Of a stretch of DNA of 43,810 nt, positions 1,139 through 19,762 are shown one piece after another. The DNA comes from an uncultured Bacteroidota bacterium (GTDB taxonomy: Bacteria; Bacteroidota; Bacteroidia; Flavobacteriales; Flavobacteriaceae): positions 1-43,810 of the forward strand of contig CABXBH010000007.1 of the NCBI GenBank assembly GCA_902510415.1. The letters run 5' to 3'. A program made the translations under genes and the position numbers. Position 1 is the first letter of the stretch; the number at the start of each line of letters is the position of its first letter. Under the pieces are notes generated by a model. The model was not told the DNA's origin. It did not search any database and worked only from the letters and a program-made list of their open reading frames with translations.

Positions 1139-2251
1139 ATGAGAAACATATTTTTGTTGTTTTTTGCATATTTGCCTTTGGTTATGTGCTCACAAAAACC
1201 GGATAATTTAAAGGATAAATTTGCAAACTATTTTTTAATTGGAGCAACCATCAATCAAGAGGATTATCAAATTATCGACAAGGATAATAAAGTGCTAAAA
1301 ATTGTTTCTGAGGACTTTAATTCAGTTACTCCTGAAAACTCTATGAAGTGGATGCATTCACATCCTGAGTATTCAAAGTTTACATTTTCAAATGCACAGA
1401 AAATTACAGATTTTGCTAAAGAAAACGATATGTTTTTATTAGGTCATACTTTGGTTTGGCACAACCAAGTACCTGAGTATGTTTCCGATATAAAGGACAA
1501 GATTAAATTTGACCTACACATAAAAAATCACATATTTCAACTTGTAACAAGATTCAAGGGAAAAGTTGATATGTGGGATGTTGTCAATGAAGCTTTAAAT
1601 GATGATGGTACGCTAAGAGAGACTGTGTTTCTTGACATGATGGGAGAAAGCTATATTGAAAAAGCATTTCAGTATGCAAATGATTTTGACCCTAATGTTG
1701 AGTTGGCTTACAATGATTACAATTTATATAAACCAAACAAACGTGCAGGAGCTATCAGAATAATAAATTCTTTAAAAGAAAAGGGAATAAGAATTGATGC
1801 AGTTGGAATTCAAGCTCACTGGGACCTTCATTTTCCAAGTATTAAGGAAATCGAGCAAACTATAATTGATCTTGCTGAAACTGGTGTTGATGTAATGATT
1901 ACTGAACTTGATATAACTGTAATTCCAAACCCTTATGAACTAGCAGGTATTGCAAGAGAGGAATTTAAAAAGTTTGAAGGGGATAAAAAATGGGACCCTT
2001 ACCAGGCTGGTATCCCTGATAATGTTCAAAAGAAATTAACAAAAAGGTATCGTGATATTTTTGAGTTATTTGTCAAGCATCATGATAAAATTAGCAGAGT
2101 AACTTTTTGGGGTACAACCGATAAATATACATGGAGAAATCAAAATCCAATTAATAATAGAGCAGATTATCCATTATTATTTGACAGAGAATATAACAAG
2201 AAACCTGCATATTATGAATTATTAGATATTGATCTCTCTGAAAAAAATTAA
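1139..2251 (+). CDS. GH10 endo-1,4-beta-xylanase
   Basis: This is a 370-aa single-domain glycoside hydrolase family 10 enzyme that cleaves the beta-1,4-xylan backbone with retention. Diagnostic motifs are HTLVWHNQ (103-110, substrate-binding His/Trp), WDVVNEA with acid/base Glu151, and ITELDI with nucleophile Glu256. A hydrophobic N-terminus (about 1-17) directs export. A Cys at 17 (LVMC) resembles a lipobox, but the Met at -1 is atypical, so lipoprotein status is uncertain. There is no T9SS tail. The gene is first in a plus-strand operon, 3 bp before the GPH symporter and 13 bp ahead of it by start codon only in the sense of tight packing with no room for a terminator. Periplasmic or outer-membrane placement fits cutting xylo-oligosaccharides for the downstream importer. 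Confidence 0.95.
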   Translation: MRNIFLLFFAYLPLVMCSQKPDNLKDKFANYFLIGATINQEDYQIIDKDNKVLKIVSEDFNSVTPENSMKWMHSHPEYSKFTFSNAQKITDFAKENDMFLLGHTLVWHNQVPEYVSDIKDKIKFDLHIKNHIFQLVTRFKGKVDMWDVVNEALNDDGTLRETVFLDMMGESYIEKAFQYANDFDPNVELAYNDYNLYKPNKRAGAIRIINSLKEKGIRIDAVGIQAHWDLHFPSIKEIEQTIIDLAETGVDVMITELDITVIPNPYELAGIAREEFKKFEGDKKWDPYQAGIPDNVQKKLTKRYRDIFELFVKHHDKISRVTFWGTTDKYTWRNQNPINNRADYPLLFDREYNKKPAYYELLDIDLSEKN

Positions 2252-2254
2252 TTT

Positions 2255-3688
2255 ATGATAACACACCCTCTTTCGATAAAAGAAAAGATAGGATATAGTC
2301 TTGGTGATCTTTCAGCCAATCTTGTTTTTCAAACACTGATTACATACTTAGCATATTTTTATACTGATATATATGGGCTAAATGCTGATGATGCTACGGC
2401 AATCATATTTATAGTTGGTACTGTTGCAGCAATTGGATTTAACCCAATTGTTGGTGCTCTGGCTGATAGAACAAACAGTAAATGGGGAAAATTTAGACCC
2501 TGGATATTATGGACTGCGATTCCATTAGGAATAACCTCAGTTTTAGCATTTACCACACCAGATTTCTCCTATAACGGCAAAGTTATTTATGCTGTTGTTA
2601 CTTATACATTATTGCTGCTTTTATACGCTGGCAGTAATCTTCCATACTCGGCATTAAGCGGAGTAATTACTGGAGACATGAAAGAAAGAAATAGTATTTC
2701 AGCATACAGATTTGTTGCTGTAATGTTTGCTCAATTTTTCGTTCAAGTATTCATGCTGCCTATCATAATGTATGCTGGAGGCGGAGATAAAGCTGTAGGT
2801 ATAGAAATCACAATGACTTGGCTTGCTATTATTGGCACAATACTTTTGATAATTACATTTATCACAACGAAAGAAAGAATCATTCCTAAACCAGAACAAT
2901 CTTCAAGTTTAATAGATGATATTCAAGATTTAATCAAAAATATTCCATGGGTAATAATGTTAACAGTTACCATTCTGCTTTTTACAACATTAGCAATGAA
3001 AGGTGGTGCTTATGTTTATTATTTTGAAAACTATGTTTCTAAAAATTCTTTAAGTGATTTCATTTCTCCAATTTTAGATTTTTTATCAAGTATAGGAATT
3101 AACTTTTTTGGAAGTGATCCAGTTTCAGCAGGTTTTGGACTTTTTAATGCAGGCGGAATTATATTCATGATTATTGGTATCGGCTTATCAAAAATGTTGG
3201 CAGATAAATATGGAAAAAGAAATGTTTTCGGAATATTTTTATTTATCTCAACACTATTTGTTTTGGTATTTTATTTTCTTTCTCCAAATTCAATTAGCTT
3301 AATTTTTGGTGCTCAGATTTTTCATGGATTCTTTTATGGGATTACTATACCGCTACTTTGGGCTATGATTGCAGATGTTGCTGATTATTCAGAGTGGAAA
3401 AATAATAGACGTGCCACAGCAATTATTTTTTCTGCTATGATGGTTGGACTAAAATTGGGATTAAGTATTGGCGGTGCATTAGTTGCAAAAATATTAGGTA
3501 ATTATGGATATGTTCCAAGTAGTGATGGAGAGCAGGTGGAGTCTGCAATTTTAGGAACTAAGATGCTGGTTAGTATTTACCCTTCAATCCCCTTTTTAAT
3601 AGCCGCAGCATTATTATTCTTTTATTCAATTGACAAAAATTTAGAAGATAAAATTGAACAAGAACTCTTAGAAAGAAGAAATAAGTAA
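2255..3688 (+). CDS. GPH-family (MFS) xylo-oligosaccharide/xyloside cation symporter
   Basis: This 477-aa polytopic inner-membrane protein shows the glycoside-pentoside-hexuronide (GPH) signature: an N-terminal GYSLGDLSANLVFQ helix start, the loop motif DRTNSKWGKFRPW (about residues 70-82), and IADVADYSEWKNNRRATAI late in the protein. Around 12 hydrophobic segments are visible. The family imports glycosides or pentosides with Na+ or H+. Placed between a secreted xylanase and a cytoplasmic GH43, it most likely imports xylobiose or short xylo-oligosaccharides, which is an inference from context. The start codon lies 3 bp after the GH10 stop and its stop is 10 bp before the GH43, so the three genes are almost certainly co-transcribed. 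Confidence 0.92.
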   Translation: MITHPLSIKEKIGYSLGDLSANLVFQTLITYLAYFYTDIYGLNADDATAIIFIVGTVAAIGFNPIVGALADRTNSKWGKFRPWILWTAIPLGITSVLAFTTPDFSYNGKVIYAVVTYTLLLLLYAGSNLPYSALSGVITGDMKERNSISAYRFVAVMFAQFFVQVFMLPIIMYAGGGDKAVGIEITMTWLAIIGTILLIITFITTKERIIPKPEQSSSLIDDIQDLIKNIPWVIMLTVTILLFTTLAMKGGAYVYYFENYVSKNSLSDFISPILDFLSSIGINFFGSDPVSAGFGLFNAGGIIFMIIGIGLSKMLADKYGKRNVFGIFLFISTLFVLVFYFLSPNSISLIFGAQIFHGFFYGITIPLLWAMIADVADYSEWKNNRRATAIIFSAMMVGLKLGLSIGGALVAKILGNYGYVPSSDGEQVESAILGTKMLVSIYPSIPFLIAAALLFFYSIDKNLEDKIEQELLERRNK

Positions 3689-3698
3689 TAGATATTTT

Positions 3699-4739
3699 AT
3701 GCCAGAAGAAAGCATTGATCATATTGATTTTGAGGAATTAAATAGGAAAGCTATTTCGCCTCCGATTGCAACCCATCTTTATACTGCTGATCCTTCTGCG
3801 CATGTGTTTAATAATAAAATATATATCTATCCGTCCCATGATATTGATGCTGGAGACGCTTTCGATGATTTAGGTAGTCATTTTGCAATGGAAGATTATC
3901 ATGTTTTCTCCATGGATGACATTAGTGGTAATGTGATAGACCATGGAATGGCTTTACATGTCGATAATGTTAAGTGGGCAGAAAGACAGATGTGGGCTCC
4001 TGACGCTAATGAGAAAAACGGACAATATTTTCTTTTTTTCCCAGCCAAAGATTACAATGGTATTTTTAGAATAGGTGTTGCAATAAGTGATAATCCTCAT
4101 GGCCCTTTTATTCCTCAGGATAATCCTATTAAAGATAGTTTTTCAATTGACCCTGCTGTGTTTAAGGATGATGATAGAAGTTATTATATGTACTTTGGAG
4201 GTATATGGGGAGGCCAATTACAAAGATGGAGAACTGGAGTTTTTAATGGAGATCATCCAGAAAGTCCTACAGCATTTTTACCAAAAGATGATGAACCTGC
4301 TTTATTGCCTTATGTAGCTAAAATGACAGATGATTTGCTGCAGTTTGATGAGTCTCCCAAGGAAGTTGAAATATTAGATGAAAATGGCGATTTATTATTA
4401 GCCGGTGATAATGATAGAAGATTTTTTGAGGCTGCTTGGCTTCATAAATACAACGGAAAATATTACTTCTCATATTCAACCGGTGATACTCATTTTATTT
4501 GCTATGCAATTGGGGAGAATCCTTATGGTCCATTCACTTATAAAGGAAGAATTTTAAACCCAGTAGTCGGTTGGACATCACATCATTCTATTTGTGAGTT
4601 TAAAGGAAAGTGGTATTTATTTTATCATGATTCTTCACTTTCTAAAGGAGTTACCCATTTGAGATCAGTCAAAATTGCTGAGATTAAATATAATGACGAT
4701 GGTACTATTCAAACTTTAGAACCATACGGAAGAAATTGA
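3699..4739 (+). CDS. GH43 beta-xylosidase / alpha-L-arabinofuranosidase (cytoplasmic)
   Basis: This 346-aa five-bladed-propeller hydrolase has the GH43 triad: general base Asp31 in YTADPSAHVF, pKa-modulating Asp151 in SIDPAVF, and general acid Glu244 in FFEAAWLHK. There is no signal peptide (the N-terminus MPEESIDHIDFEE is acidic and polar), so it should act in the cytoplasm on sugars brought in by the adjacent GPH symporter, releasing xylose or arabinose. Family members split between xylosidase and arabinofuranosidase activity, and the sequence alone does not decide. No accessory beta-sandwich domain is present. It is the last gene of the operon. Confidence 0.92.
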   Translation: MPEESIDHIDFEELNRKAISPPIATHLYTADPSAHVFNNKIYIYPSHDIDAGDAFDDLGSHFAMEDYHVFSMDDISGNVIDHGMALHVDNVKWAERQMWAPDANEKNGQYFLFFPAKDYNGIFRIGVAISDNPHGPFIPQDNPIKDSFSIDPAVFKDDDRSYYMYFGGIWGGQLQRWRTGVFNGDHPESPTAFLPKDDEPALLPYVAKMTDDLLQFDESPKEVEILDENGDLLLAGDNDRRFFEAAWLHKYNGKYYFSYSTGDTHFICYAIGENPYGPFTYKGRILNPVVGWTSHHSICEFKGKWYLFYHDSSLSKGVTHLRSVKIAEIKYNDDGTIQTLEPYGRN

Positions 4740-4748
4740 CTCTTTGAG

Positions 4749-4823
4749 ATGAATAAAAATCCTCAAAGTAAAACATCAGAAAGAGCAGCTTATTCGGTAT
4801 TAAGAATTACCTTTAAAGATTAA
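4749..4823 (+). other. 24-codon micro-ORF in frame downstream of GH43 (doubtful)
   Basis: After the GH43 TGA stop the same frame stays open for 28 further codons and contains an ATG at 4749 followed by 24 codons to TAA. The ATG falls in the loop of a weak 7-bp hairpin (4742-4748 with 4762-4768). The peptide would be polar and basic (starts MNKNPQSKTSERAAY). It may be chance, a remnant of a longer GH43 C-terminus, or a tiny peptide; nothing in it identifies a function. Confidence 0.15.
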
Positions 4824-4840
4824 ATCAAAAAATTCTTAGT

Positions 4841-6049
4841 TTAGAGACTTTTTGCATCATATAATGCTTTCAAAACAGCATAATATGCTCCCTTCCTAGA
4901 ATAATCTTTATTAACCATCCAAGCCTTTTGATCCTTTCTCCATCCTCCATAAGGAATATCATCTCTAAAACCCCAATCACTAATTATTTTAACACCAGCC
5001 TCTTTTGCTGTTTTTACTAAGTTGTAGTAAATTTTATTTTGTTCTTCAAAGAACCATTCCCAATCAGCTTCAGTTTTAATTACATCAGAAACTTTTTTGC
5101 GACTATCTCCTTGTCCCCAAAGATTTAAACCCACGTCAAGCTCAGTTATATAAACCTCAACACCTAAATCGATAAATCGTAAAATATTTTTTCTCAAATT
5201 CTCATAGTTGTAATTTAAACCAGCATTTAAATGACATTGAAAACCAACAGCATCAACCCTAACTCCAGTGTTTTTTAAATGCTTAATTAATTGGTAAACA
5301 CCATCAGCTTTTTTACCTCCAAAAGCTATATTAAAATCTCTTATTTCTAATTTTGCATCAGTTAAATTAGAGGCTATGTCAAAAACTTTTCTAACAAAAA
5401 CTGGATGCTCTTCATTAATTTTTTGCCCACCCTTTAAGCCTGACATATCTTTTTCAAATCCCATATCCATCCACTTACAATCTTCTTTCTCATCACCAGA
5501 AACTCTGTATTTACCAGATTTACCCATTGCAAATATTTCATTAATTACATTGAAAACATCAACCTTATTTTTATTGTCATTTGAATTAATCACTTCGGTA
5601 ATGAATGTTTCAATTATAAACTCTAATTCGCTGGCAGAGTAATTTGTTTTTGAAAACCAAGAAGGAAAATATTTATTTGGAAAAATCAAACAATGATGCA
5701 TTATATGAAATTCATTCTCAACCCCCCAATTTACCAACTCATCAAGAAATGCCGTTTCAACTTTAAAATTTTCCAATGAACTAGGTTTTTTCTTAGGCCA
5801 AAATCCTCCATCCCACGCCGGATATATAGATGGTTGGATGCCGGTATAATTTCTTAACACAAATTCTCTATTTTTATCCGCCTCTGTTCCACGTAAAATT
5901 GCCTTATTTCTTTCACCCCTAACTTGAGTAGTAATTATCATCTCGCCAGAATAGTCTTTTAGAAAAGCATCCTTATTGTAGTCTTGGGCAAACATTTTAC
6001 TTGCCACTAATAAAATTATTATTGAATAGTGTATAATTAATCTTCGCAT
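4841..6049 (-). CDS. Divergent GH10-family endo-xylanase
   Basis: This 402-aa protein has a GH10 fold signature with acid/base Glu171 (FNVINE) and nucleophile Glu303 (VYITELDVGL). An N-terminal hydrophobic segment ending near ...KMFAQ (1-21) predicts Sec export. It is clearly less canonical than the upstream GH10: the usual HTLVWHNQ glycone-site motif is replaced by FHIMHHCLIF (about 114-123), and there is an insertion-rich stretch between the two catalytic Glu (KSGKYRVSGDEKEDCKWMD). Its reading direction is opposite to the operon on either side, and it is divergent from the sulfatase with an 81-bp shared promoter region. The changed subsite residues may indicate a decorated (sulfated, acetylated or glucuronylated) xylan or oligosaccharide substrate; this is inference. 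Confidence 0.88.
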   Translation of the reverse strand: MRRLIIHYSIIILLVASKMFAQDYNKDAFLKDYSGEMIITTQVRGERNKAILRGTEADKNREFVLRNYTGIQPSIYPAWDGGFWPKKKPSSLENFKVETAFLDELVNWGVENEFHIMHHCLIFPNKYFPSWFSKTNYSASELEFIIETFITEVINSNDNKNKVDVFNVINEIFAMGKSGKYRVSGDEKEDCKWMDMGFEKDMSGLKGGQKINEEHPVFVRKVFDIASNLTDAKLEIRDFNIAFGGKKADGVYQLIKHLKNTGVRVDAVGFQCHLNAGLNYNYENLRKNILRFIDLGVEVYITELDVGLNLWGQGDSRKKVSDVIKTEADWEWFFEEQNKIYYNLVKTAKEAGVKIISDWGFRDDIPYGGWRKDQKAWMVNKDYSRKGAYYAVLKALYDAKSL

Positions 6050-6130
6050 ATTTGTTATTTAACCTGCACTAAAGTTATGATAATTATTAATTTTTATTGA
6101 TATTTAGTAAACAGGAAATTAAACTTACTT

Positions 6131-8035
6131 ATGATAAATATCAAATTTCTCAATTCATTATTATTTTACTTTCTCTTTATAACTTTAACAACTTCTTATT
6201 CTCAAGAAAATGATAAACCAAATGTTTTGTTTATCTCTATTGATGATTTGAAGCCAACCATTGGTAGTTTTGGCGATGAATTTGCTGTGACTCCAAATAT
6301 TGATAAGCTTTCTGAAACCTCAACAGTTTTTTTAAATAACCATACCCAACTTGCTATTTGCGCTGCATCAAGAGTTAGTTTTTTAACTGGATTAAGACCT
6401 GATAAAACTAAAGTTTGGGATTTAAAAACTAAAATGAGAGATGTTAATCCTGAAGTTTTAACCTTACCAGAACATTTTAAAAATAACGGCTATCAAACAG
6501 TTGGCGTTGGTAAAATTTATGACCCTAGAGCTGTAGATAGCGGAAGGGATAGACGCTCATGGTCAGTTCCTTTTATTACTCAGAATCAATTAACTTTTTC
6601 CGATGGTTATAGCTTTCCGTCAGGAGGTTTTTACCAAGGTAAGGAGAATAGAAAAATAAGGTCTAAACTTAGAGAAGAAGCAATAGCAAAAGGGGTTAGC
6701 AATTTAAATAAATATGAGTCTGATAGGTATAAGCCTCCTTATGAAAAAGCTGATGTTCCTGATGGCGCTTACATGGATGGAGCAATTGCTAATAGAGCAG
6801 TTGAATTAATCGATGAAATGGATACTTCAAAACCATTCTTTTTGGCAGTTGGTTTTTTAAGACCTCACCTGCCTTTTAATGCACCTACAAAATATTGGGA
6901 CATGTATAACGAAGATGAAATTCAGCTCGCTTCATTTAGGACAAAAAGTAAAAATCCCGTTGACATAGCTTATAAGGGTGGGTGGGAAATTAACACATAT
7001 AAGGCGCCTGGTATCGAATATATTGAAAATGATGAGGGGCTTTTAATTCTACCCGATGATATTCAAAGAAAATTAATTCATGGATACTATGCTGCAACTA
7101 GCTATATTGATGCTCAAATAGGAATAGTTCTTGAAAAACTTAAAGAAAAAGGACTTGATAAAAATACCCTAATTGTCTTGTGGGGTGATCATGGTTTTCA
7201 TTTAGGAGACCACAGTCAATGGACAAAACATACAAACTTTGAACAATCAACTCGTTCCCCATTATTAATCAAAGACCCAAGAGTTAATAAAACAGTGAAG
7301 GTTAACACACCTACAGAGTTTATTGATGTTTTCCCAACCTTATGTGAATTAGCAGAAATAGAAACTCCTGAGGTTCTTGACGGGATAAGTTTAAAACCTC
7401 AGTTAATTGGCAAACAAACAACTTCAAAAATATTTGCAGTAAGTCAATATCCAAGACGTGGAAACATTATGGGGTATAGTTTTAGAACTAAAAGGCACAG
7501 GTATACAGTTTGGGTAAATAATAAAAAGAGTTCTGAACCAATTTATATCGAAGATATATATGCAGAGGAATTATATGACTATAATAAAGACCCTTTAGAA
7601 ACAGAAAACATTATTAATCGTCCAGATCAACAGAGAGTTAAGACAACATTTCAAACATTAGCTGCTAGATTTTTTAATTCTCAAATTGTCAATGATCTGG
7701 AGCCAGTAATTGAAGAAATAAAGTATGAAGTAGCCAAGCCTGCACCGAATAATAAATGGGCTAATCAAAGATCAATGGCTATAAGTCAATATATTTCGAC
7801 GGAAATGCTTATGAATAAAAATCAAACAAAATTTCTTCAACAGGTGCTTTATGATAAATATGCTAGAAATAATGAATCGACGGTCGGTAAAAAATTATCA
7901 AAGGAAAAAATTGAATCTATTTATAAAGAAAATTTTTCTGTTGCTTCGCAAGAATTAATGAGCAAATTCACTAAGAAACAATTTGAAAGAATAACAGAAT
8001 TAGAAAGACAAAAAATGAATCAAATAAGAAACTAA
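6131..8035 (+). CDS. S1-family sulfatase (iduronate-2-sulfatase-like)
   Basis: This 634-aa arylsulfatase-superfamily enzyme has a signal peptide (about 1-25, TSYSQ). Visible motifs are the metal-binding pair Asp38-Asp39 in ISIDDL, the formylglycine core CAASR with Cys77 and Arg81, and the C-terminal metal/substrate motif WGDHGFHLGDH (Asp353, His354, Lys366). The overall pattern (DDLKPTIGSFGD, GKIYDPR) matches iduronate-2-sulfatase-like S1 subfamilies. Cys77 must be oxidised to formylglycine, and an FGE gene lies about 6 kb away in the same locus. The core has Ala where Pro is usual. An extra C-terminal region of about 130 residues (about 505-634) is Lys/Gln-rich and helical. In this locus the expected substrate is a sulfated xylan-type polysaccharide; the start is followed by a co-directional esterase 11 bp after its stop. 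Confidence 0.93.
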   Translation: MINIKFLNSLLFYFLFITLTTSYSQENDKPNVLFISIDDLKPTIGSFGDEFAVTPNIDKLSETSTVFLNNHTQLAICAASRVSFLTGLRPDKTKVWDLKTKMRDVNPEVLTLPEHFKNNGYQTVGVGKIYDPRAVDSGRDRRSWSVPFITQNQLTFSDGYSFPSGGFYQGKENRKIRSKLREEAIAKGVSNLNKYESDRYKPPYEKADVPDGAYMDGAIANRAVELIDEMDTSKPFFLAVGFLRPHLPFNAPTKYWDMYNEDEIQLASFRTKSKNPVDIAYKGGWEINTYKAPGIEYIENDEGLLILPDDIQRKLIHGYYAATSYIDAQIGIVLEKLKEKGLDKNTLIVLWGDHGFHLGDHSQWTKHTNFEQSTRSPLLIKDPRVNKTVKVNTPTEFIDVFPTLCELAEIETPEVLDGISLKPQLIGKQTTSKIFAVSQYPRRGNIMGYSFRTKRHRYTVWVNNKKSSEPIYIEDIYAEELYDYNKDPLETENIINRPDQQRVKTTFQTLAARFFNSQIVNDLEPVIEEIKYEVAKPAPNNKWANQRSMAISQYISTEMLMNKNQTKFLQQVLYDKYARNNESTVGKKLSKEKIESIYKENFSVASQELMSKFTKKQFERITELERQKMNQIRN

Positions 8036-8046
8036 GCTTTTAAAAA

Positions 8047-8901
8047 ATGTACAAATTTAGATTCTTTTTCGTCTTACTTTTTCTTCTTTTAAGCTACATA
8101 TCATTCTCTCAAAATGATAAAGTTTTTATAAAACATGAAAAAGTACTATATAAATCTACTAAACAAGGAGATCTTAATCTATACTTTTATAGACCACTAG
8201 ATTTTGATAAATCTAAGACATATAATTGTATAATTTTTTTTCATGGAGGAGGTTGGAATTCGGGAGACTATAAACAATTCGAAAGACAGTCAATGTATTT
8301 TGCTTCAAGAGGTATGATAGCAATCTCAGCTGAATATAGAATTAAGAATAAACATGGAACAACTCCAATTCAAGCAATGGAAGATGCTAAGTCAGCAATA
8401 AGATTTTTAAGGTTAAATGCAAAATCATTTTTTATTAATCCTAATAGAATTGCAGCAGCAGGCGGTTCTGCGGGAGGTCATTTAGCTGCAGTTACGGCTA
8501 ACATTGATTTATTCGATAATGTGAATGAGGACTTAGGTATAAGTTCTAAACCTAATCTTTTAGTTTTATATAATCCAGTTATCGATTTTGGTTCAAGGAA
8601 GTGGTTGTGGATTGACAATCCTTTAGACGCTTCGCCAGTTCATAATATTTCAAAAGGATCTCCGCCTACTATTATTTTAACAGGCACTAAGGATAAAATT
8701 GTTCCAGTAGAAACCATTATGAATTACAAAAAAATAATGGAATCAGTTGGTAGTAGATGTGATGTTATTTTGTACGAGGGCGCAGAACATGCATTTTTTA
8801 ACAAAGGGGAAGATTTTATAGATACTGTGTTAAAATCAGATATTTTTTTAAAATCAAATTGGTATTTAGAAGGTACACCAACAATTAAGCAACAATATTA
8901 G
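8047..8901 (+). CDS. Alpha/beta hydrolase, probable acetyl-xylan esterase (BD-FAE/esterase-lipase type)
   Basis: This 284-aa exported hydrolase has a signal peptide ending near SFSQ (about 1-22). The fold markers are the oxyanion motif HGGGW (66-70), nucleophile Ser141 in GGSAGG, acid Asp216 in TGTKDKIVP and His248 in EGAEHAF. This pattern belongs to the esterase/lipase group that includes acetyl-xylan and feruloyl esterases. It follows the sulfatase by 11 bp in the same direction, so the pair probably forms a two-gene unit that strips substituents (sulfate and acyl groups) from xylan before GH10 attack. The exact acyl group removed cannot be read from sequence. Confidence 0.85.
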   Translation: MYKFRFFFVLLFLLLSYISFSQNDKVFIKHEKVLYKSTKQGDLNLYFYRPLDFDKSKTYNCIIFFHGGGWNSGDYKQFERQSMYFASRGMIAISAEYRIKNKHGTTPIQAMEDAKSAIRFLRLNAKSFFINPNRIAAAGGSAGGHLAAVTANIDLFDNVNEDLGISSKPNLLVLYNPVIDFGSRKWLWIDNPLDASPVHNISKGSPPTIILTGTKDKIVPVETIMNYKKIMESVGSRCDVILYEGAEHAFFNKGEDFIDTVLKSDIFLKSNWYLEGTPTIKQQY

Positions 8902-8911
8902 AATCTAGGTC

Positions 8912-10564
8912 TTAGCCGGTAAAATAACTGAGCACTCCAATAATTAGTATTACAAGAATTACTGATAATAATACATCAGAAAACTCATAACTATTTCTGT
9001 TTTCATGTTTTTGTTCTTCTGTTAATGTTCCAAATGAAAGTCCTATTATATCATTATAATTTGGCTCCGATGTTGAAAGCGTAACACCAATACATAATAA
9101 GATTGAAAATACAAACATTAATATCGCCATATGAGAAAAATTGATAGTTGCAAACACAAACATGAACCCGTCAACTATTTGATTTGAAGATATTTCAGGC
9201 TGAAAATAAATTTCTGAACCAAGTCTTAAAATTAGAAGTATAAGTCCTGCCATAAGGGTTGTAATTGCAGCTTTTGAGTTAACTCTTTTCCATAGAATTC
9301 CCAGCAAAAAGACGGCAGCTACTGGCGGGGCAATATATGATTGAACATTTTGAAGATATTGATACATAACTCCACCTCCAATTTTTTCCATTATAGGAAT
9401 CCAAATTATTCCAAGAATTACAATTACTGCTGTCGCGATTTTACCAATATTTAATAATTTATTTTCAGATTCATTTGGTTTAAGTTTTTTGTAAATATCA
9501 ATAGTAAATATGGTTGAACATGAATTAAATACTGAAGCAAGAGAACTCATCAGCGCAGCCATAAGTCCACCTGCCACCAAACCTTTCAGCCCAACAGGTA
9601 ATAATGTTTTTACTAACATAGGAAATGCTCTATCTGCTTTTTCAATGGAAAATACTTCTGGATTTTGAACAGATAATGCAAATGCTATAATACCTGGAAT
9701 TAAGAAAATAAATATGGGTAAAAGTTTTAAGTAAGCCCCAAAAATTGCACCACGTCTACCAATTTTAATATTATTTGCAGCAAGTGTTCTTTGAACAATA
9801 TATTGGTCGGTACACCAATACCAAATACCTACAATTGTACCCCCAAATAATAATCCAGTCCAAGGAAAATCAGGGTCATTCATAGGTCTCCACATATTAA
9901 AATGTTCAGGACTTTCTGCAATAACAATACTTCTTAATTCATTCCATCCGCCAACTTCTTGTAAACCTAAATAAGTAATTATTATAGAACCTAATATTAG
10001 TATTACCGCTTGTAGTGTTTCAGTATATATTACCGCCTTCATACCTCCAATTACTGTATATATTCCTGTGAACAAAACAACACCAATTGCACCATACCAA
10101 AAAGGAATTCCAAGTAGTTCAGAAACTACAATACCACCAGCATATATAGTCACTGAAACCTTTGTTAAAACATACGCAATCAGAGAAAATAGAGATAAGA
10201 ACCATCTCGATCTTGAATCAAATCTTTTTTCTAAAAACTCAGGCATTGTAAATGCACCACTTCTTATATAAAATGGAAGGAAAAGCCACCCAAGCAATAA
10301 CACTATCCAGGCATGAAGCTCATAATGAGCCATTGGTGTTCCAGATTCAAATCCGGTTCCGGCTAACCCAACGACGTGTTCTGAACCAATATTAGAAGCA
10401 AAAATTGATGCACCAATTACAAACCACCCAACATTTCTTCCAGCTAAAAAGTAATCTTCAGTATTGCTGTGTTTTTGTAGTGCAACCCAAACCGCAACAA
10501 CTATTAATGCAAGAAAATAAACTCCTAATACAACCCAATCTAAAGCCTCTAAAACTGTATTCAA
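8912..10564 (-). CDS. SSS-family sodium:sugar symporter (SGLT-like), likely xylose importer
   Basis: This 550-aa sodium:solute symporter has about 14 hydrophobic segments, the N-terminal pattern NTEDYFLAGRNVGWFVIGAS and the TM motif GLMAALMSSLASVFNS characteristic of vSGLT-like transporters. It is the last gene of a minus-strand operon, 6 bp after xylA, which points to import of free xylose. The start is a TTG at 10564: the only codons between it and the in-frame TAA of xylA are ATC and ATT, and the next Met would remove the first membrane helices. The two genes therefore share a frame, separated only by the xylA stop, which suggests translational reinitiation. Confidence 0.92.
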   Translation of the reverse strand: MNTVLEALDWVVLGVYFLALIVVAVWVALQKHSNTEDYFLAGRNVGWFVIGASIFASNIGSEHVVGLAGTGFESGTPMAHYELHAWIVLLLGWLFLPFYIRSGAFTMPEFLEKRFDSRSRWFLSLFSLIAYVLTKVSVTIYAGGIVVSELLGIPFWYGAIGVVLFTGIYTVIGGMKAVIYTETLQAVILILGSIIITYLGLQEVGGWNELRSIVIAESPEHFNMWRPMNDPDFPWTGLLFGGTIVGIWYWCTDQYIVQRTLAANNIKIGRRGAIFGAYLKLLPIFIFLIPGIIAFALSVQNPEVFSIEKADRAFPMLVKTLLPVGLKGLVAGGLMAALMSSLASVFNSCSTIFTIDIYKKLKPNESENKLLNIGKIATAVIVILGIIWIPIMEKIGGGVMYQYLQNVQSYIAPPVAAVFLLGILWKRVNSKAAITTLMAGLILLILRLGSEIYFQPEISSNQIVDGFMFVFATINFSHMAILMFVFSILLCIGVTLSTSEPNYNDIIGLSFGTLTEEQKHENRNSYEFSDVLLSVILVILIIGVLSYFTG

Positions 10565-10570
10565 AATGAT

Positions 10571-11884
10571 TTAAATATACTGGTTTAAAATATTTTCAAA
10601 CAACTCTTGTTTTCCACTTTCAGGATTTATTTCACTAGCTCCTTTCGCAATATCATATAAGTCATTTAATTCTAATTTACCATTTTCAAAATCTTTTCCC
10701 TGACCACTATCAAACGTTTGATATCTCTTTTCTCTAAGGTCCGTGTATGATGATGAATTAATAATTTTGTCTGCTGTAATTAGTGCTCTAGCAAAAGTAT
10801 CAGCCCCTCCAATATGAGCATAAAATATATCTTCCATGTCAGTTGAATTTCTTCTAATTTTAGCATCAAAGTTTATTCCACCTCCTTGAAGACCACCAGC
10901 TTGAAGGAAAACCAACATAGCTTCGGTGGTTTCTAAAATATTGTTCGGAAATTGATCTGTGTCCCAACCATTTTGATAATCACCTCTATTGGCATCAATA
11001 CTACCTAACATTCCTGCTTTAGCAGCAACAGCAAGTTCGTGCTGCATTGTATGTTGGGCAAGAGTAGCATGATTCACTTCAATATTTAGTTTAAAGTCTT
11101 TATCTAATCCATACTCTTTTAAAAATCCAATTGCTGTAGCAGAATCAAAATCATATTGATGTTTCATAGGCTCCATTGGTTTTGGCTCTATGAAAAAAGT
11201 TCCTTTAAATCCTTGTGATCTAGCATAATCTTTAGCCATTGTTAAAAAACGAGCCATGTGGTCAAGCTCTCTACCCATATCGGTATTTAACAATGACATG
11301 TATCCTTCTCTTCCTCCCCAAAAAACATAATTCTCACCACCAAGTGCGATAGTTGCATCCAAAGCAAGTTTTACCTGAGCACCAGCTCTTGCTACTACAT
11401 TAAAATTCGGATTTGTTGCAGCCCCATTCATATATCTTGGATTTGAAAAACAGTTTGCCGTTCCCCATAAAAGCTTAATTCCAGATTCACTTTTTTTATC
11501 CTTTATATAATTTACTATAGTATCAAGTCTTTTTTCTGATTCAGAAAATGTTGAAGCCTCTCTTACCAAGTCAAAATCATGGAAACAGAAATAATCAAAC
11601 CCCATTTTTTGAATAAATTCAAATGCCGCATCTGCTTTGTCTTTTGCTGCTTGAATCGGGTCAGGATTTTTATCCCATTCAAAATTTAATGTTCCAGGCC
11701 CAAAGGGATCTGAACCAACCCCACAGAATGAATGCCAATAAGCAATAGCAAATTTGAAATGATCTTTCATTTTTTTGCCTGCTACTACTTTGTTTGGATC
11801 ATAATATTTAAATGCTAAAGGGTTATCCGATTCTGACCCTTCGTATTGAATTTTATCTATACCTCTATAATATTCTTTGCTCAT
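10571..11884 (-). CDS. xylA: Xylose isomerase
   Basis: This 437-aa cytoplasmic enzyme interconverts D-xylose and D-xylulose. Its length fits class II xylose isomerases. Motifs are FHDFDL with His102 and Asp105, VFWGGREGY, the metal-ligand Glu in [17 protein letters not shown] and [19 protein letters not shown], all typical of the TIM-barrel family. The gene lies 7 bp downstream of xylB and 6 bp upstream of the SSS symporter on the minus strand, so it is co-expressed with xylose import and phosphorylation and completes catabolism of the xylan released by the surrounding hydrolases. Confidence 0.97.
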
Positions 11885-11891
11885 AATTAAA

Positions 11892-13376
11892 TTATTTATT
11901 TTTTAAAATTCCTTGTAAATCTTTTTTCCATCTTAAATATGCATCCTCATATTCTGATTTATTTTTAAGTGGTAAGAATGTCATTACGTGATCATTCTTT
12001 GTAATTTTTTCTCTGAATGAACTTAAATCACTATTTACAATTCCTGAAGCTCTTGCCGCACCATATGCACCTGTTGTATTGTATATTTCTATTTCATGAC
12101 CGATTAATGTTGCAACAGTATTTGCAAATATTTTAGATCTAAACAGATTATCATTACCTGCTCTTATTACATTTATTGAAGCATTATCATTTTTTAAAAT
12201 TTCCATACCATATACAAAAGAAAATGCAATGCCTTCTAATGATGACCTGTAAAGGTGCCCATGACTGTGCTTGTTTAAATTTATATTACAAATATGTGTA
12301 CCGATATTTTTGTTGTTTAGCATTCTTTCAGCACCGTTTCCAAAAGGAATTACAGAAATACCATCAGATCCAACAGAAATGCTAGATGCTTGCTCATTCA
12401 TTTTTTCATATGACTTGCCAACACTATGATTTCTAAGCCATCTGTATTGAATTCCAGCTCCATTTATGCAAAGTAATTTTCCGATTGATTTATTATTGTC
12501 ATTATAATTTACGTGAGCAAAATGATTTATTCTTGAAGGTTCACTAGAATTAAGATTATTGGTAATAGAATAGATAACCCCAGAAGTACCACCCGATGCA
12601 GCTACCTCACCATTATCAAAAACGTTTAAAGACAAAGCATTATTTGGCTGATCTCCAGCTCTATATGTAATTGGCACACCAACACTTAATCCTGTTTCCT
12701 CCGATGACCTTAAATTTATCACACCTTGATTGCTAAAATTATCTACTACATCAGGTGTTAAATTTGTATCAATTCCATAATAATCAAGAAGCCAATCGGC
12801 AGTTGAATTATTTTTATAATCCCAAATCATGCCCTCAGACAATCCGTTTCTTGTTGTATTAATTTCCCCTGTTAATTTATACGCGATATAATCACCCGGC
12901 AGCATATATTTATAAATTTTCTCATAAATATCAGGCTCGTTTTCTTTAACCCATTTTAACTTTGAAGCTGTAAAATTTCCCGGCGAGTTTAGTAAGTGTG
13001 ACATACATTTATCTTGTCCCAAATTCTCAAATGCATCATTACCAATTTTAACGGCTCGACTATCACACCAAATAATTGAATCTCTAAGTGGATTTCCGTT
13101 TTTGTCAATCACAACTAACCCATGCATTTGATATGAAATACCGATAGAAATAATTTTTTTTGAATCAATATTAGATTCTTTACAAACTCTCTTTATAGCA
13201 TCACATGCATAGTTCCACCACATATTAGGATCTTGCTCAGCCCAGTCATTTTTTATTGAATTGATACTCATCTCATTTTTAGGCTCATGAACACTTAATA
13301 CACTTTTGCCAGATTTTGCATCTACTATAGCAGCTTTTACTGAAGAACTACCAACATCTAAGCCTAGGTAATACAT
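11892..13376 (-). CDS. xylB: Xylulokinase
   Basis: This 494-aa FGGY-family sugar kinase phosphorylates D-xylulose to xylulose 5-phosphate. The ATPase-fold N-terminus is [17 protein letters not shown] (Asp7), MHGLVVID marks the first domain, and the catalytic base is Asp242 in [10 protein letters not shown], followed by the phosphate-binding AASGGTSG. Length is normal for XylB. It precedes xylA by 7 bp. A 70-bp gap separates it from the upstream FGE gene and contains a -7-like TATATTTA on the minus strand, so a separate xylB promoter is possible. Confidence 0.96.
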
Positions 13377-13446: not shown

Positions 13447-14499
13447 TTATTTATTTAGAAGCATTTCTGGTGTAACAATGGTTCTAAATCCAGTGTGGTC
13501 AGAACCCGAATCAATACTTACCCCCATTCTTGCAGAAATTCTATAACTAGCACAATATGAATCGTGACATAAAAAAGACCCTCCCTTCATTACATGCTGA
13601 ATTTCATAAGGGTTACTGGGATTGTAACAACTACTAGCACCTTTTAAGTTTTTTAAGTCTGAATTTAAACTTAATTCAGAATAATAATTGACATTGAAAA
13701 GATCATTAGTAATTTCCCAAACATTTCCAATCATATCATATACCCCAATAGTGTTTGGAGGAAAAGATTTCACAGGTGCAATCATTTCAAATCCATCGAT
13801 AGATTCATTGTTCACAGGAAAATTACCTTGCCATGTATTAGCATTAGAATTTAATAAATCCACTTCATTACCCCAAGTATAAATAGCCTGATTGTAATTT
13901 CCTTGTGCTGCCGACTCCCATTCTGCTTCGCTGGGAAGTTTTCTATTAGACCAATTACAATAAGCTAAAGCATCTTCAAGAGCAACATGAACAACGGGAA
14001 AATTACCTTTATCATTTATATTGGATCCAGGTCCTTCTGGAGATTTCCAATTTGCTCCAGGTTGCCATTTCCACCATTGAAAATAGTTAGTCATATTAAC
14101 TATTTCTTTAATTTCTTTATTAAATATTAAACTTCCAGGCTGAAGTAGTGAATCATGTGGTTTTGGAGTGCCGGCAGGTAGACTTTTTTTAATTTCATCC
14201 CATTCAATTTTTCTTTCAGCTATTGTTATATATCCAGTTTCATTAACAAATTTTTGAAACTGATTATTAGTAACTTCAGTAGCATCAATAAAAAACCCAT
14301 CAATATATACATCGTGAGATGGTTTTTCTCTCATCATTGCATATCCATCCTGATTTTTTGCTCCTTTTGTATATGATTTGCTTTCAACCCAAATCATACC
14401 TTCTGGCGCATCTAAGGATACATCTTGCATTTTATTTATATCCTTACAACCAGTTAATAGTAAAGAAAATATTATTAAAAATTTTAAGCTATTTGCCAT
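13447..14499 (-). CDS. Formylglycine-generating enzyme (sulfatase-activating), exported lipoprotein
   Basis: This 350-aa FGE-sulfatase/SUMF1-domain protein retains both active-site cysteines, Cys311 and Cys316, in GGSFLCHDSYCASYR, which lines up with the copper-dependent aerobic FGE site. Other family marks are MIWVESKSYTKG, IDGFFIDATEVTNNQF, RKLPSEAEWESAA, GNVWEITND and the terminal GFRTI. The family oxidises the sulfatase core Cys to formylglycine with O2. The N-terminus has a clear lipobox, LLTGC with Cys18, predicting an exported lipoprotein. The Cys pair separates it from gliding proteins GldJ/GldK, which share the fold but are structural. It lies 70 bp upstream of xylB in the same direction, so sulfatase maturation may be co-expressed with xylose catabolism. 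The probable client is the locus sulfatase. Confidence 0.88.
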   Translation of the reverse strand: MANSLKFLIIFSLLLTGCKDINKMQDVSLDAPEGMIWVESKSYTKGAKNQDGYAMMREKPSHDVYIDGFFIDATEVTNNQFQKFVNETGYITIAERKIEWDEIKKSLPAGTPKPHDSLLQPGSLIFNKEIKEIVNMTNYFQWWKWQPGANWKSPEGPGSNINDKGNFPVVHVALEDALAYCNWSNRKLPSEAEWESAAQGNYNQAIYTWGNEVDLLNSNANTWQGNFPVNNESIDGFEMIAPVKSFPPNTIGVYDMIGNVWEITNDLFNVNYYSELSLNSDLKNLKGASSCYNPSNPYEIQHVMKGGSFLCHDSYCASYRISARMGVSIDSGSDHTGFRTIVTPEMLLNK

Positions 14500-16504: not shown

Positions 16505-19500
16505 ATGAGGTTTTTCTTACTAATTTTTTTAGCGCTATTTGCCAATTCTGCATTTTCACAACAGTGGAAAGAAATGGCTAATGATATTAATATAAATATT
16601 TATGATGTTGTTGCTGAAGCAGAAGCATATTTTGAAACTATTGATAAAACAAAAAAAGGATCTGGATGGAAAGCTTATCAAAGATGGCTCTATGAAAATG
16701 AGCCTAAGTATTATCCTAGCGGAGAAAGAAATATAGTTAAGTCAAATTTTGTTTCTGATGGATTTAAAGATTTTCTTGCTAAAAACCCAACTTCGAATAA
16801 ATCAAATTTTGATAATGGCTGGGAAGAGTTAGGCCCATATTATATTGAAGAGGTTACTGGACACTATGCAGTTGGATTAGGAAGAATTGAATCGTTTTAC
16901 ATTGATCAAAATGATGATAATAGAATTTTTCTTGGTTCAAGAAGTGGGGGTTTTTGGAAGACATTAGACGGCGGCGAAAGTTGGGAGAATACAACGGATT
17001 TTTTATTCGCATCAGGTGTAAATACAATAGCTGTCGCTCCTGAAAATCCTGAAAGAGTTTTAATTAATGTAAGAAACTCATACAATGGAACAACTCATGG
17101 AATTTATGAGTCAATTGATGGTGGAGAGACTTGGTCTATCACAAATTTTAATCCCGATAATTTAAACTGGGGAGGACTTGGTACAAATAATAGAATCTAT
17201 AAAATAATGTATCACCCTACGATTCCAAATCTTGTTTTTGCTGGAACTAGTGAAGGACTTTTCAAATCTAATAATAATTTTGAATCATTTTCTTTCGTTC
17301 CAACTGGAAATACTTGGGAATATAATCAAGATTATGATTACATCGAATTTCATCCAACAAATGAAAATATAATCTATATATCTACCTTTAATAACGACTC
17401 ACAAATATATGTTTCAACTGATGCTGGGGCAAGCTTTACCTCGTCTGGATCTATACCTGGTAATAACAGTAATATACAATTGTCTGTTTCAGCTGCTTGT
17501 GAAAATTGTGTTTTTGTTGGCTCTAGTGATGGTGTTTGGAAATCTGATAATTTAGCGGATACTTTTACACTTTCTGGAAATCCAAATATTTCAAATTATG
17601 GTGCTTTTGCTGTAAGCGATACGGATGATAATTATATGCTATTTGGAGATATTGATACACATATGAGTAATGATGGAGGTCAGACTTGGAATCAAGTTAC
17701 ATATTGGGCAACTGGTAATGCAAATTATGACACTACTGGCCAATATGTTCACGCAGATATTAGAGGGTCTAGAAGTTATAACGGAGTATTTTGGGTAAAC
17801 ACAGATGGTCTTTTAGCAAAAAGTAATGATAATGGTATTACCTGGGAAATTTTTGAAGGCCAATCAATAAGAGAAAACTACTGTCTCGGCGCAAGTCAAT
17901 CAAATCATTATAGAACAATAACAGGGTCACAGGATAATGGAACAAGTATAAAAAATGAAGATACTTGGATAGAATTTTATGGAGCTGATGGTATGGAAGG
18001 AATTATTCATCCTCTAAATGATGATTGGATGATTGGTAGTTTGCAGTTTGGAGGTAAGCGAAGAACTAAGGATGGTGGATACAACCAAGATGGTGTAAAT
18101 CCTGATGATTTCAATGGTGATTGGGTAACCCCTTTAATGTATGATCCAAATGAGCAGATGAGTATTTATACAATGACAAATATTTTATATCGAAGCGACG
18201 ATTTTGGGTCGAATTGGACAACGCTTGGTAATAGCTTTTTTGGAGGAAATATTCAAAACGCTGCAATTGCTGAAAATAATTCAAACACACTAGCAATTTC
18301 TAATTATAACAGACTTAAAATATCTAATGACGGAGGATTAACGTTTACAGAAGTCTCTCAATCTCTCCCAAATCAGTTCATAACTGATATTGCTTTTGAT
18401 CCAAAGGATGATGATACTATTATAGTTACCTACGGAACATATGGAAATAATAGTCAGAAGGTATATATGTCATCTAATCAGGGTAGTAGCTGGCAAAATA
18501 TTACTCATAATTTAGGCAATATGCCAATAAGAAGTGTGGTTATCGATCATACTGACGATTCAACAATTTATTTAGGAGCTGAAATAGGAGTTTATAAGAA
18601 ATCTATGTCCGAAAATACTTGGGAATTGTATAATGAAAATTTACCAAATACTACAGTGATGGAGCTTGAAGTAGTATATGGGTCAAACACCCTAAGAGGT
18701 ACGACATGGGGAAGAGGCGTTTGGGAATACTCCCTTACGGGGAGAGAGAATTTTCCTTCAATTTTAACCACTAGAATTTCTAATCAACCCACTGACACAC
18801 AACCAAAGGAAGGCATAGATCAATTTGTCACATCAATGATAGAATATGATGGGGATTTAAATAGTGTTTATGTTGAGTGGATAACAGAATCATCATCTGA
18901 AATAATCCAAATGTCTAACTCAGAGAATAATATTTGGATTTCAGATTCTGCTATTCCAAATTTTGAAGCAGGCACAAAAGTTTTCTTCAAAGTCTTTGCA
19001 GAATCTTCTAACGGACTACTGTCTGAAACGTATAAGTTTATGTATCAAGTAAGAGATAATGTTTTATGTACACCATCAATGAATTGTGATTATAATGATG
19101 GTTTTCAATTGTTTCAACTGCAGGATATTGATAATACCTCTGGATGCGAAGGCTATGGTGATTTTACTTCGATTTCAACTGATTTAGAGCAAGGTTCAGA
19201 GTATGAATTAACTGTAACAACTGGCTATGGAGACCAGTATATTAAAGTATGGATTGACTACAATGATGATTTAGATTTCACTGAAGATGAAGTAGTTGTA
19301 AATAATTATGTAATTGCTCCAGGTTTAGCAGGCGGGTCTTATACCGAAACTATAAGTTTTGAGATTGCACAAGATGCTGTTTTGGGGCAACATATTTTAA
19401 GAGCAAAAGCTAATTGGAGTGGAGATGTACCAACTGATGCATGTGTAGAGACAACATACGGAGAAACAGAAGATTATTCTGTGACTATTGTAGAATCATC

Positions 19501-19762
19501 ATTAGGGATAATTGAAAATAGTTTTCAAGAAAATCCAATTATTTATCCAAATCCTACAGATGGAAATATTTCAATTGATCTTAGAAAAAATTACGATAAT
19601 GTAACAATTCAATTAAACGATATTTTAGGTAGGCAGATAATAACTAAATCTCATAATCAAGGCAGAATATTTAATTTAAGTATAAACGAGAGTCCTGGAG
19701 TTTATTTCCTTTCGATTATTGCTGAAAATAAAAAGGTTGTATTTAGGTTAGTTAAAAATTAA
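16505..19762 (+). CDS. Large T9SS-secreted Asp-box (VPS10/sialidase-like propeller) protein with GEVED domain
   Basis: This 1085-aa protein has a signal peptide (1-19, NSAFSQ). From about residue 130 to 750 it carries at least eight Asp-box motifs of the S-x-D-x-G-x-(T/S)-W type, such as TLDGGESW, SIDGGETW, SNDGGQTW, SNDNGITW and SDDFGSNW, indicating one or two beta-propellers like VPS10/BNR proteins. A GEVED domain follows at about 900-1000 (IKVWIDYNDDLDF), then a type A T9SS sorting tail from about 1010 (IIYPNPTDGNI to GVYFLSII). Such propellers occur in GH74-like xyloglucanases, sialidases and non-enzymatic adhesins; catalytic residues were not identified, so surface binding or peptidase-associated roles remain open. 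Its stop overlaps the convergent GH53 stop by 4 nt. Confidence 0.85.
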   Translation: MRFFLLIFLALFANSAFSQQWKEMANDININIYDVVAEAEAYFETIDKTKKGSGWKAYQRWLYENEPKYYPSGERNIVKSNFVSDGFKDFLAKNPTSNKSNFDNGWEELGPYYIEEVTGHYAVGLGRIESFYIDQNDDNRIFLGSRSGGFWKTLDGGESWENTTDFLFASGVNTIAVAPENPERVLINVRNSYNGTTHGIYESIDGGETWSITNFNPDNLNWGGLGTNNRIYKIMYHPTIPNLVFAGTSEGLFKSNNNFESFSFVPTGNTWEYNQDYDYIEFHPTNENIIYISTFNNDSQIYVSTDAGASFTSSGSIPGNNSNIQLSVSAACENCVFVGSSDGVWKSDNLADTFTLSGNPNISNYGAFAVSDTDDNYMLFGDIDTHMSNDGGQTWNQVTYWATGNANYDTTGQYVHADIRGSRSYNGVFWVNTDGLLAKSNDNGITWEIFEGQSIRENYCLGASQSNHYRTITGSQDNGTSIKNEDTWIEFYGADGMEGIIHPLNDDWMIGSLQFGGKRRTKDGGYNQDGVNPDDFNGDWVTPLMYDPNEQMSIYTMTNILYRSDDFGSNWTTLGNSFFGGNIQNAAIAENNSNTLAISNYNRLKISNDGGLTFTEVSQSLPNQFITDIAFDPKDDDTIIVTYGTYGNNSQKVYMSSNQGSSWQNITHNLGNMPIRSVVIDHTDDSTIYLGAEIGVYKKSMSENTWELYNENLPNTTVMELEVVYGSNTLRGTTWGRGVWEYSLTGRENFPSILTTRISNQPTDTQPKEGIDQFVTSMIEYDGDLNSVYVEWITESSSEIIQMSNSENNIWISDSAIPNFEAGTKVFFKVFAESSNGLLSETYKFMYQVRDNVLCTPSMNCDYNDGFQLFQLQDIDNTSGCEGYGDFTSISTDLEQGSEYELTVTTGYGDQYIKVWIDYNDDLDFTEDEVVVNNYVIAPGLAGGSYTETISFEIAQDAVLGQHILRAKANWSGDVPTDACVETTYGETEDYSVTIVESSLGIIENSFQENPIIYPNPTDGNISIDLRKNYDNVTIQLNDILGRQIITKSHNQGRIFNLSINESPGVYFLSIIAENKKVVFRLVKN

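Follow-up and report, generated by a model that had tools for sequence, protein, structure and literature searches.

Human formylglycine-generating enzyme (FGE) is placed beyond the translocon, and its clients are exported proteins. A second enzyme, anSME, makes formylglycine in sulfatases as well. In PMC4505483, FGE is described as cytosolic in prokaryotes and as an enzyme of the endoplasmic reticulum (ER) in eukaryotes, and the consensus of its clients is given as CxPxR. Formylglycine formation in sulfatases by anSME is also described in PMC6388578, which counts a single anSME in each of two anaerobes, alongside 20 and 11 PF03781 genes, respectively. In PorK, the FGE fold is reused without the cysteines (PMC12421860, accessible part). 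No description of an exported bacterial FGE was found in the literature searched, which consisted of partly accessible texts and had most subscription journals outside it.

Here, we analyzed an FGE gene from a marine bacterium within a window (the whole stretch of DNA analyzed) of 43,810 nucleotides. The open reading frame starts with ATG and has the following features:

13447..14499, minus strand: predicted lipoprotein formylglycine-generating enzyme, 350 aa, assigned by PF03781, PDB matches, the predicted model and Foldseek
13477..14403, minus strand: FGE domain, residues 33-341 (PF03781)
13552..13569, minus strand: Cys311-x4-Cys316, the FGE cysteine pair, conserved in every one of the 34 aligned rows
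14446..14499, minus strand: predicted SPII signal peptide, residues 1-17, followed by the lipobox LTGC with Cys18 (from the sequence and homologue lipoboxes)

The protein matched the Pfam FGE-sulfatase family PF03781 with 218.6 bits (1.5e-64) over residues 33-341, covering profile positions 3-254 of 255, and its best PDB matches were the FGEs of Thermomonospora curvata (5.5e-61) and human (5.3e-57). The alignment with the T. curvata enzyme extends through GGSFLCHDSYC, the segment that contains Cys311 and Cys316. Both cysteines and the preceding GGS were invariant in the 34-row alignment (L047, with a stop within its range, was left out), in agreement with the first-pass annotation, which had read the two residues as the C-x4-C of FGE. 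Structure prediction had been suggested there as a check, and an AlphaFold2 model of FGE alone (pLDDT 88.6, pTM 0.86) resembled the human and Thermomonospora enzymes. Solved FGEs occupied Foldseek ranks 1-26, with human FGE on top (7.6e-31, TM by target 0.89) and a TM by target of 0.83-0.91 for T. curvata FGE. By these sequence and fold tests, the protein is classed as an FGE, and a chance origin of this call was discounted because of the PDB matches and because the lipobox recurs in homologues.

It is conceivable that this exported protein is no longer a sulfatase maturase and, like GldJ, GldK and PorK, employs the FGE fold in a structural role or for another reaction. Bacteroidota do reuse the fold in T9SS/gliding lipoproteins (PMC12421860, accessible part), and sulfatase-rich genomes without a lipoprotein FGE exist. 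In addition, a paper on copper-binding bufferins (PMC12452194) lists a Buf1/cytochrome/FGE-sulfatase fusion, the nearest published hint of an exported protein with an FGE domain, so such domains may also have other roles involving copper. However, the C-x4-C that is kept in the window FGE and in all aligned rows was absent from GldK and the other FGE-like proteins read, and the alignment to FGE spans the whole domain. The window FGE also scored far under the cut-offs of GldK (TIGR03525, the best-scoring NCBIfam model, 109.6 vs 350 bits) and GldJ (TIGR03524, 42.3 vs 458.2 bits), both of which were rejected as identities; no NCBIfam model was above its cut-off for this protein. Co-occurrence with sulfatases argues against such a loss of function too. 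With scoring limited to the four or five top candidates of each genome, 188 of 397 Flavobacteriaceae genomes had a match to the window FGE at 1e-20 (179 at 1e-60 or better) and 328 had a sulfatase at 1e-30; sulfatases were present in all 179 strong-FGE genomes vs 149 of the other 218 (Fisher 5e-21, kinship ignored). We regard a non-maturase role as unlikely.

Residues 1-18 of the protein, MANSLKFLIIFSLLLTGC, begin with a short segment containing a single Lys, followed by a hydrophobic stretch and then the LTGC lipobox. A lipobox at Cys18 had been claimed in the first-pass annotation, and the call is upheld by the sequence and by our own rule, which was used here for lipobox prediction in place of a dedicated predictor. 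Homologues were sampled as 110 rows: of 573 confirmed loci in named genomes, the 80 highest-ranking were taken, and a family search contributed its top 30. These are the nearest homologues, among them an orthologue from Winogradskyella echinorum (L012), and actinobacterial FGEs lie outside the sample. The rows were grouped, after the N-termini had already been seen, into 88 Bacteroidota (including the window FGE as row L090), 15 proteobacterial/acidobacterial and 7 from other phyla or with a doubtful label; L011 and L092 look like one genome. A rule-defined lipobox Cys after a hydrophobic stretch was predicted in 83 of the 88 Bacteroidota rows. Among the remaining five, L059 and L073 had a lipobox by eye, the Cys in L064 and L110 was preceded by Arg or Asp, and L051 had none. 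Lipoboxes were found in none of the 15 proteobacterial/acidobacterial rows, 14 of which lacked a hydrophobic stretch and one of which was borderline, and in two of the 7 other or doubtful rows by rule, the other five having a hydrophobic stretch only.

In a tree of 87 rows, 73 labeled as exported and 14 labeled as cytosolic, with labels assigned by group and not row by row, were split by one branch with 100/100 support. This tree omitted L090 and L092; of the 28 family loci then left, 8 were retained, and L073 and L087, without the anchor motif, were lost. Among the Bacteroidota FGE rows examined, the predicted lipoprotein form is the rule and is not special to this organism. The signal noted in the first-pass annotation thus stood, and it extends to nearly all Bacteroidota rows.

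Surface display of FGE was also considered and is not favoured. Two adjacent acidic residues at positions +2 to +6 were present after only 6 of the 83 FGE lipoboxes, most of which therefore carry no acids resembling K-(D/E)2, a lipoprotein surface signal; SDDFE, the surface signal proposed for Flavobacterium, differs from K-(D/E)2, so surface display may still occur (both signals from PMC5080379).

The FGE gene lies beside a sugar-utilization region with the following features:

11892..13376, minus strand: FGGY kinase, xylulokinase-like (XylB; TIGR01312, 294.6 bits, under the cut-off of 380.25)
10571..11884, minus strand: xylose isomerase XylA (TIGR02630, 679.7 bits, over the cut-off of 533.25)
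8912..10564, minus strand: sodium/solute symporter (PF00474, 313.1 bits)
8047..8901, plus strand: BD-FAE type esterase with an N-terminal signal-like sequence (PF20434, 104.5 bits; kept in L010, L011 and L015)
6131..8035, plus strand: Cys-type sulfatase with a signal sequence, a likely client (PF00884, 154.4 bits; kept in L010, L011 and L015)
4841..6049, minus strand: GH10-related protein, a block neighbour (PF00331, 133.3 bits)

FGE, xylB, xylA and the symporter form a same-strand run with gaps of 70, 7 and 6 bp, the first of which is the distance given in the first-pass annotation. The sugar of the XylB-like kinase is not settled by family alone, because its NCBIfam score is below cut-off. 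The esterase and sulfatase genes are convergent to this run, and further out are GH10, GH43, an MFS transporter and another GH10. Positions 1139-8901, with two GH10 genes, GH43, an MFS sugar transporter, the sulfatase and the esterase, have the appearance of a xylan-type locus; no SusC/SusD pair was present among the window ORFs whose families were scanned. At 16505-19762, the window also encodes a protein of 1085 aa that combines Sortilin-Vps10 and GEVED domains with a T9SS sorting tail, and proteins upstream of FGE in L011 and L015 have, by eye, a similar N-terminus.

The run, together with the esterase and sulfatase, was retained in three loci of the nearest clade (L010, L011 and L015; FGE identity 71-74%), where the sulfatase is followed by a protein whose N-terminus resembles, by eye, that of the GH10-related protein at 4841..6049. 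In L010 and L011, an extra lipoprotein-like gene separates the symporter from the esterase. Upstream of FGE, the window has a GDSL gene, whereas L010, L011 and L015 share a different gene there. FGE-xylB was also visible in short stretches from two genomes of the same genus (L091 and L092, the latter with an N-terminus identical to that of L011). Elsewhere among the 110 loci, neither xylA nor xylB was seen in the vicinity of FGE, but L091-L119 cover approximately 4 kb each and several further loci are short. The link to xylose is thus a gene block of this clade, which suggests a shared locus and not a general mechanism. Regarding the coupling to xylose catabolism that had been proposed for this gene, the co-location was real and recurred in the three nearest-clade loci, but it was not seen in other loci, many of them short, which supports the proposal only in part; whether by regulation or otherwise, coupling would be conjecture.

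This block could also mean that FGE is dedicated to xylose or xylan use, with the neighbouring sulfatase as its sole client. The idea is favoured by the retention of the block in three loci, although the gene upstream of FGE there is not that of the window. A scan listed no terminator-like site in the FGE-xylB gap, which would fit as well, but it gave fewer sites than shuffles and says little. Against such specialization, xylA and xylB were absent beside FGE outside the nearest clade, and FGE was the single PF03781 match in the partial source genome (1,247,281 bases, 67.83% complete), which had nine sulfatase matches, eight of them on contigs other than that of FGE. A dedicated xylan partner is therefore considered highly improbable. 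We also looked for a conserved functional partner beside FGE by clustering the four nearest genes per side in 61 Bacteroidota loci, many of which were from Algoriphagus. Frequent clusters, the commonest of which occurred in 21 of the 61 loci, were judged by eye, without annotation; none looked sulfatase- or copper-related, and no such partner was adopted. A smaller cluster (8 loci, 14 proteins) had a representative protein that scored as a sulfatase.

All nine sulfatases in the source genome were of the Cys type, with Cys in a C-x-[PA]-[SA]-R motif, and all had signal sequences, eight as called and the ninth after a downstream start. The third motif position was Pro in seven and Ala in two. 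As the first-pass annotation had stated, the window sulfatase has its core residue at Cys77 (6359-6361), here within CAASR and in a protein with a signal sequence. This motif has Ala in place of the consensus Pro, and the departure from CxPxR was counted against a periplasmic FGE. The second Ala-type sulfatase has CGASR (locus L120, near 3966).

We compared export signals of sulfatases, at most four per genome from the matches listed, between 11 of 12 chosen lipoprotein-FGE genomes and 12 cytosolic-FGE genomes, a classification that leaves further FGEs possible in either group. By our own rule, all 40 sulfatases sampled from the lipoprotein-FGE genomes had Sec-type signals, 20 with a possible lipobox, and none was of the Tat type or unsignalled. 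From the cytosolic-FGE genomes, 34 were sampled and two had no match; among the 32 scored, 23 carried Sec signals (two of these with a possible lipobox), 5 had Tat signals and 4 had no signal, and the rule missed some RR motifs visible by eye in L159, L162, L165 and L167. In Bradyrhizobium and related genomes (L074-L089), a signal-less FGE was often directly before a sulfatase gene, and several of these sulfatases had twin-arginine-like signals. An all-Sec client set fits, weakly, an enzyme able to meet only unfolded Sec substrates. Because Tat is seldom used by Bacteroidota, the 40/40 count is a weak test of periplasmic action, and the Sec/Tat comparison, although consistent, was not accepted as proof.

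The same comparison bears on the idea that maturation is cytoplasmic, with the FGE precursor or an unlipidated fraction acting before sulfatase export. In other bacteria, sulfatases bound for Sec export can be matured by an FGE or anSME that stays in the cytosol, and Sec-like signals by rule were common in the cytosolic-FGE genomes (23 of 32 sulfatases). However, the lipobox predicted in nearly all Bacteroidota rows would serve no purpose on an enzyme required in the cytoplasm, where copper is scarce. Cytoplasmic action seems very unlikely.

A genome search for anSME had also been suggested in the first-pass annotation. No anSME match was found at 1e-3 in the source genome, which is weak by itself because of the incompleteness of this genome, and none at 1e-60 in the 397 Flavobacteriaceae genomes, with at most a few candidates scored per genome. 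At the phylum level, the anSME profile had matches at the same threshold in 10 of 198 genomes, 8 of them above cut-off.

The sequences thus provide an FGE domain with its Cys pair, a predicted lipobox, Cys-type sulfatases with signal sequences and no anSME match in the genome searched. The most probable interpretation, in which we have good confidence, is an aerobic, copper-type FGE that would be exported by Sec, lipidated at Cys18 and oriented to the periplasm, maturing Sec-exported sulfatases after translocation. Lipidation, orientation, copper, activity and timing are argued from FGE biochemistry. The enzyme would cross the inner membrane by Sec and, given the few surface-signal-like sequences, would face the periplasm. 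Copper would be bound by Cys311 and Cys316, and the active-site Cys of type I sulfatases would be oxidized to formylglycine while the client is unfolded and emerging from the translocon. Maturation would then follow translocation and take place where O2 is present and copper is easier to obtain, matching the topology of the animal ER enzyme, and FGE would serve the whole sulfatase set of the cell, beyond the sulfatase of the xylan locus. Co-expression of a flavobacterial FGE, that of Formosa agariphila, with sulfatases in E. coli (PMC8511951) was counted against this interpretation, although that enzyme may belong to another family or may have been expressed with its signal removed. The earlier proposal of O2- and copper-dependent maturation outside the cytoplasm is consistent with the FGE-type active site, the predicted lipobox, the exported Cys-type clients and the anSME search, but is set, in its simplest form, against 51 chosen sulfatase-rich relatives with neither a recognizable FGE nor a recognizable anSME.

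The selection criteria for these 51 Flavobacteriaceae genomes were ten or more first-look sulfatase candidates and the absence of a strong FGE, and PF03781 searches covered all of them (33 + 18 genomes); G067 and G327, which also combine many sulfatase candidates with a lack of strong FGE, are outside this set. The best PF03781 match was read in 48 of them (all but G014, G023 and G025; weaker matches were left out), and none of these matches had the FGE Cys pair, whereas 8 of 8 FGE-positive controls had the pair and a lipobox-like start. Ten of these best-match proteins were compared with NCBIfam; six were GldK over cut-off and four (approximately 300-320 aa) were over none. The anSME model, applied at 1e-5 to 23 of the 51, gave a match in 13, the best with 36.6 bits vs a cut-off of 349.45 and 524.5 for the positive control G424. 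All 20 sulfatases sampled from 12 FGE-less genomes were of the Cys type. In G002, G180, G237, G383 and G389 (loci L229-L233), an FGE-like lipoprotein of 300-319 aa without C-x4-C was observed, with 193-209 bits against our own FGE profile and 33-35% identity to the window FGE (two compared); anSME was not found in these five genomes.

Since neither enzyme was found in these relatives, FGE is unlikely to be the sole maturation route in the family. The 51 genomes point to a further maturase, although a divergent FGE or anSME below the thresholds is possible. Another maturation route seems to operate in Flavobacteriaceae and could also act in the source organism. A third bacterial sulfatase maturation system was reportedly proposed for E. 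coli by Benjdia in 2007 (cited in PMC6315715). Sulfatase maturation in Flavobacteriaceae might be wholly extracytoplasmic, with about half of the sampled genomes using a periplasmic lipoprotein FGE and the FGE/anSME-less ones a probably exported third maturase, perhaps related to that proposed for E. coli; we offer this broader scheme tentatively and with less than even confidence. Sulfatase-rich genomes without a recognizable FGE or anSME provide a genomic handle on the proposed third system.

What is new is the predicted compartment of FGE, a general feature of the Bacteroidota rows examined; the association with xylose genes is local. The lipoprotein FGE is a variant of a known enzyme, because prokaryotic FGE is described as cytosolic (PMC4505483, available text). 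If Bacteroidota FGE is periplasmic, sulfatase maturation would proceed as in the ER, with implications for how copper is supplied, for redox partners and for enzyme tools.

Compared with known systems, the window FGE is similar to human FGE/SUMF1 (PDB 1y1e, 5ssz) in predicted fold and in the GGS-x2-C-x4-C Cys pair, with 36-37% identity in Foldseek alignments; however, the human enzyme is ER-retained, whereas the window FGE would belong to the bacterial envelope and has a predicted lipid anchor. The FGEs of Streptomyces coelicolor (2q17) and T. curvata (6s07) have the domain, the Cys pair and the predicted fold in common with it, and the lipobox signal distinguishes the window FGE from cytosolic bacterial FGE. 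anSME (TIGR03942) likewise makes formylglycine but is a radical-SAM enzyme, and it was not detected in the source genome or, at 1e-60, in the 397 Flavobacteriaceae. GldK, GldJ and PorK share the PF03781 fold and lipoprotein signal with the window FGE but, unlike it, are larger, have no Cys pair and play a structural role (PMC12421860, accessible part).
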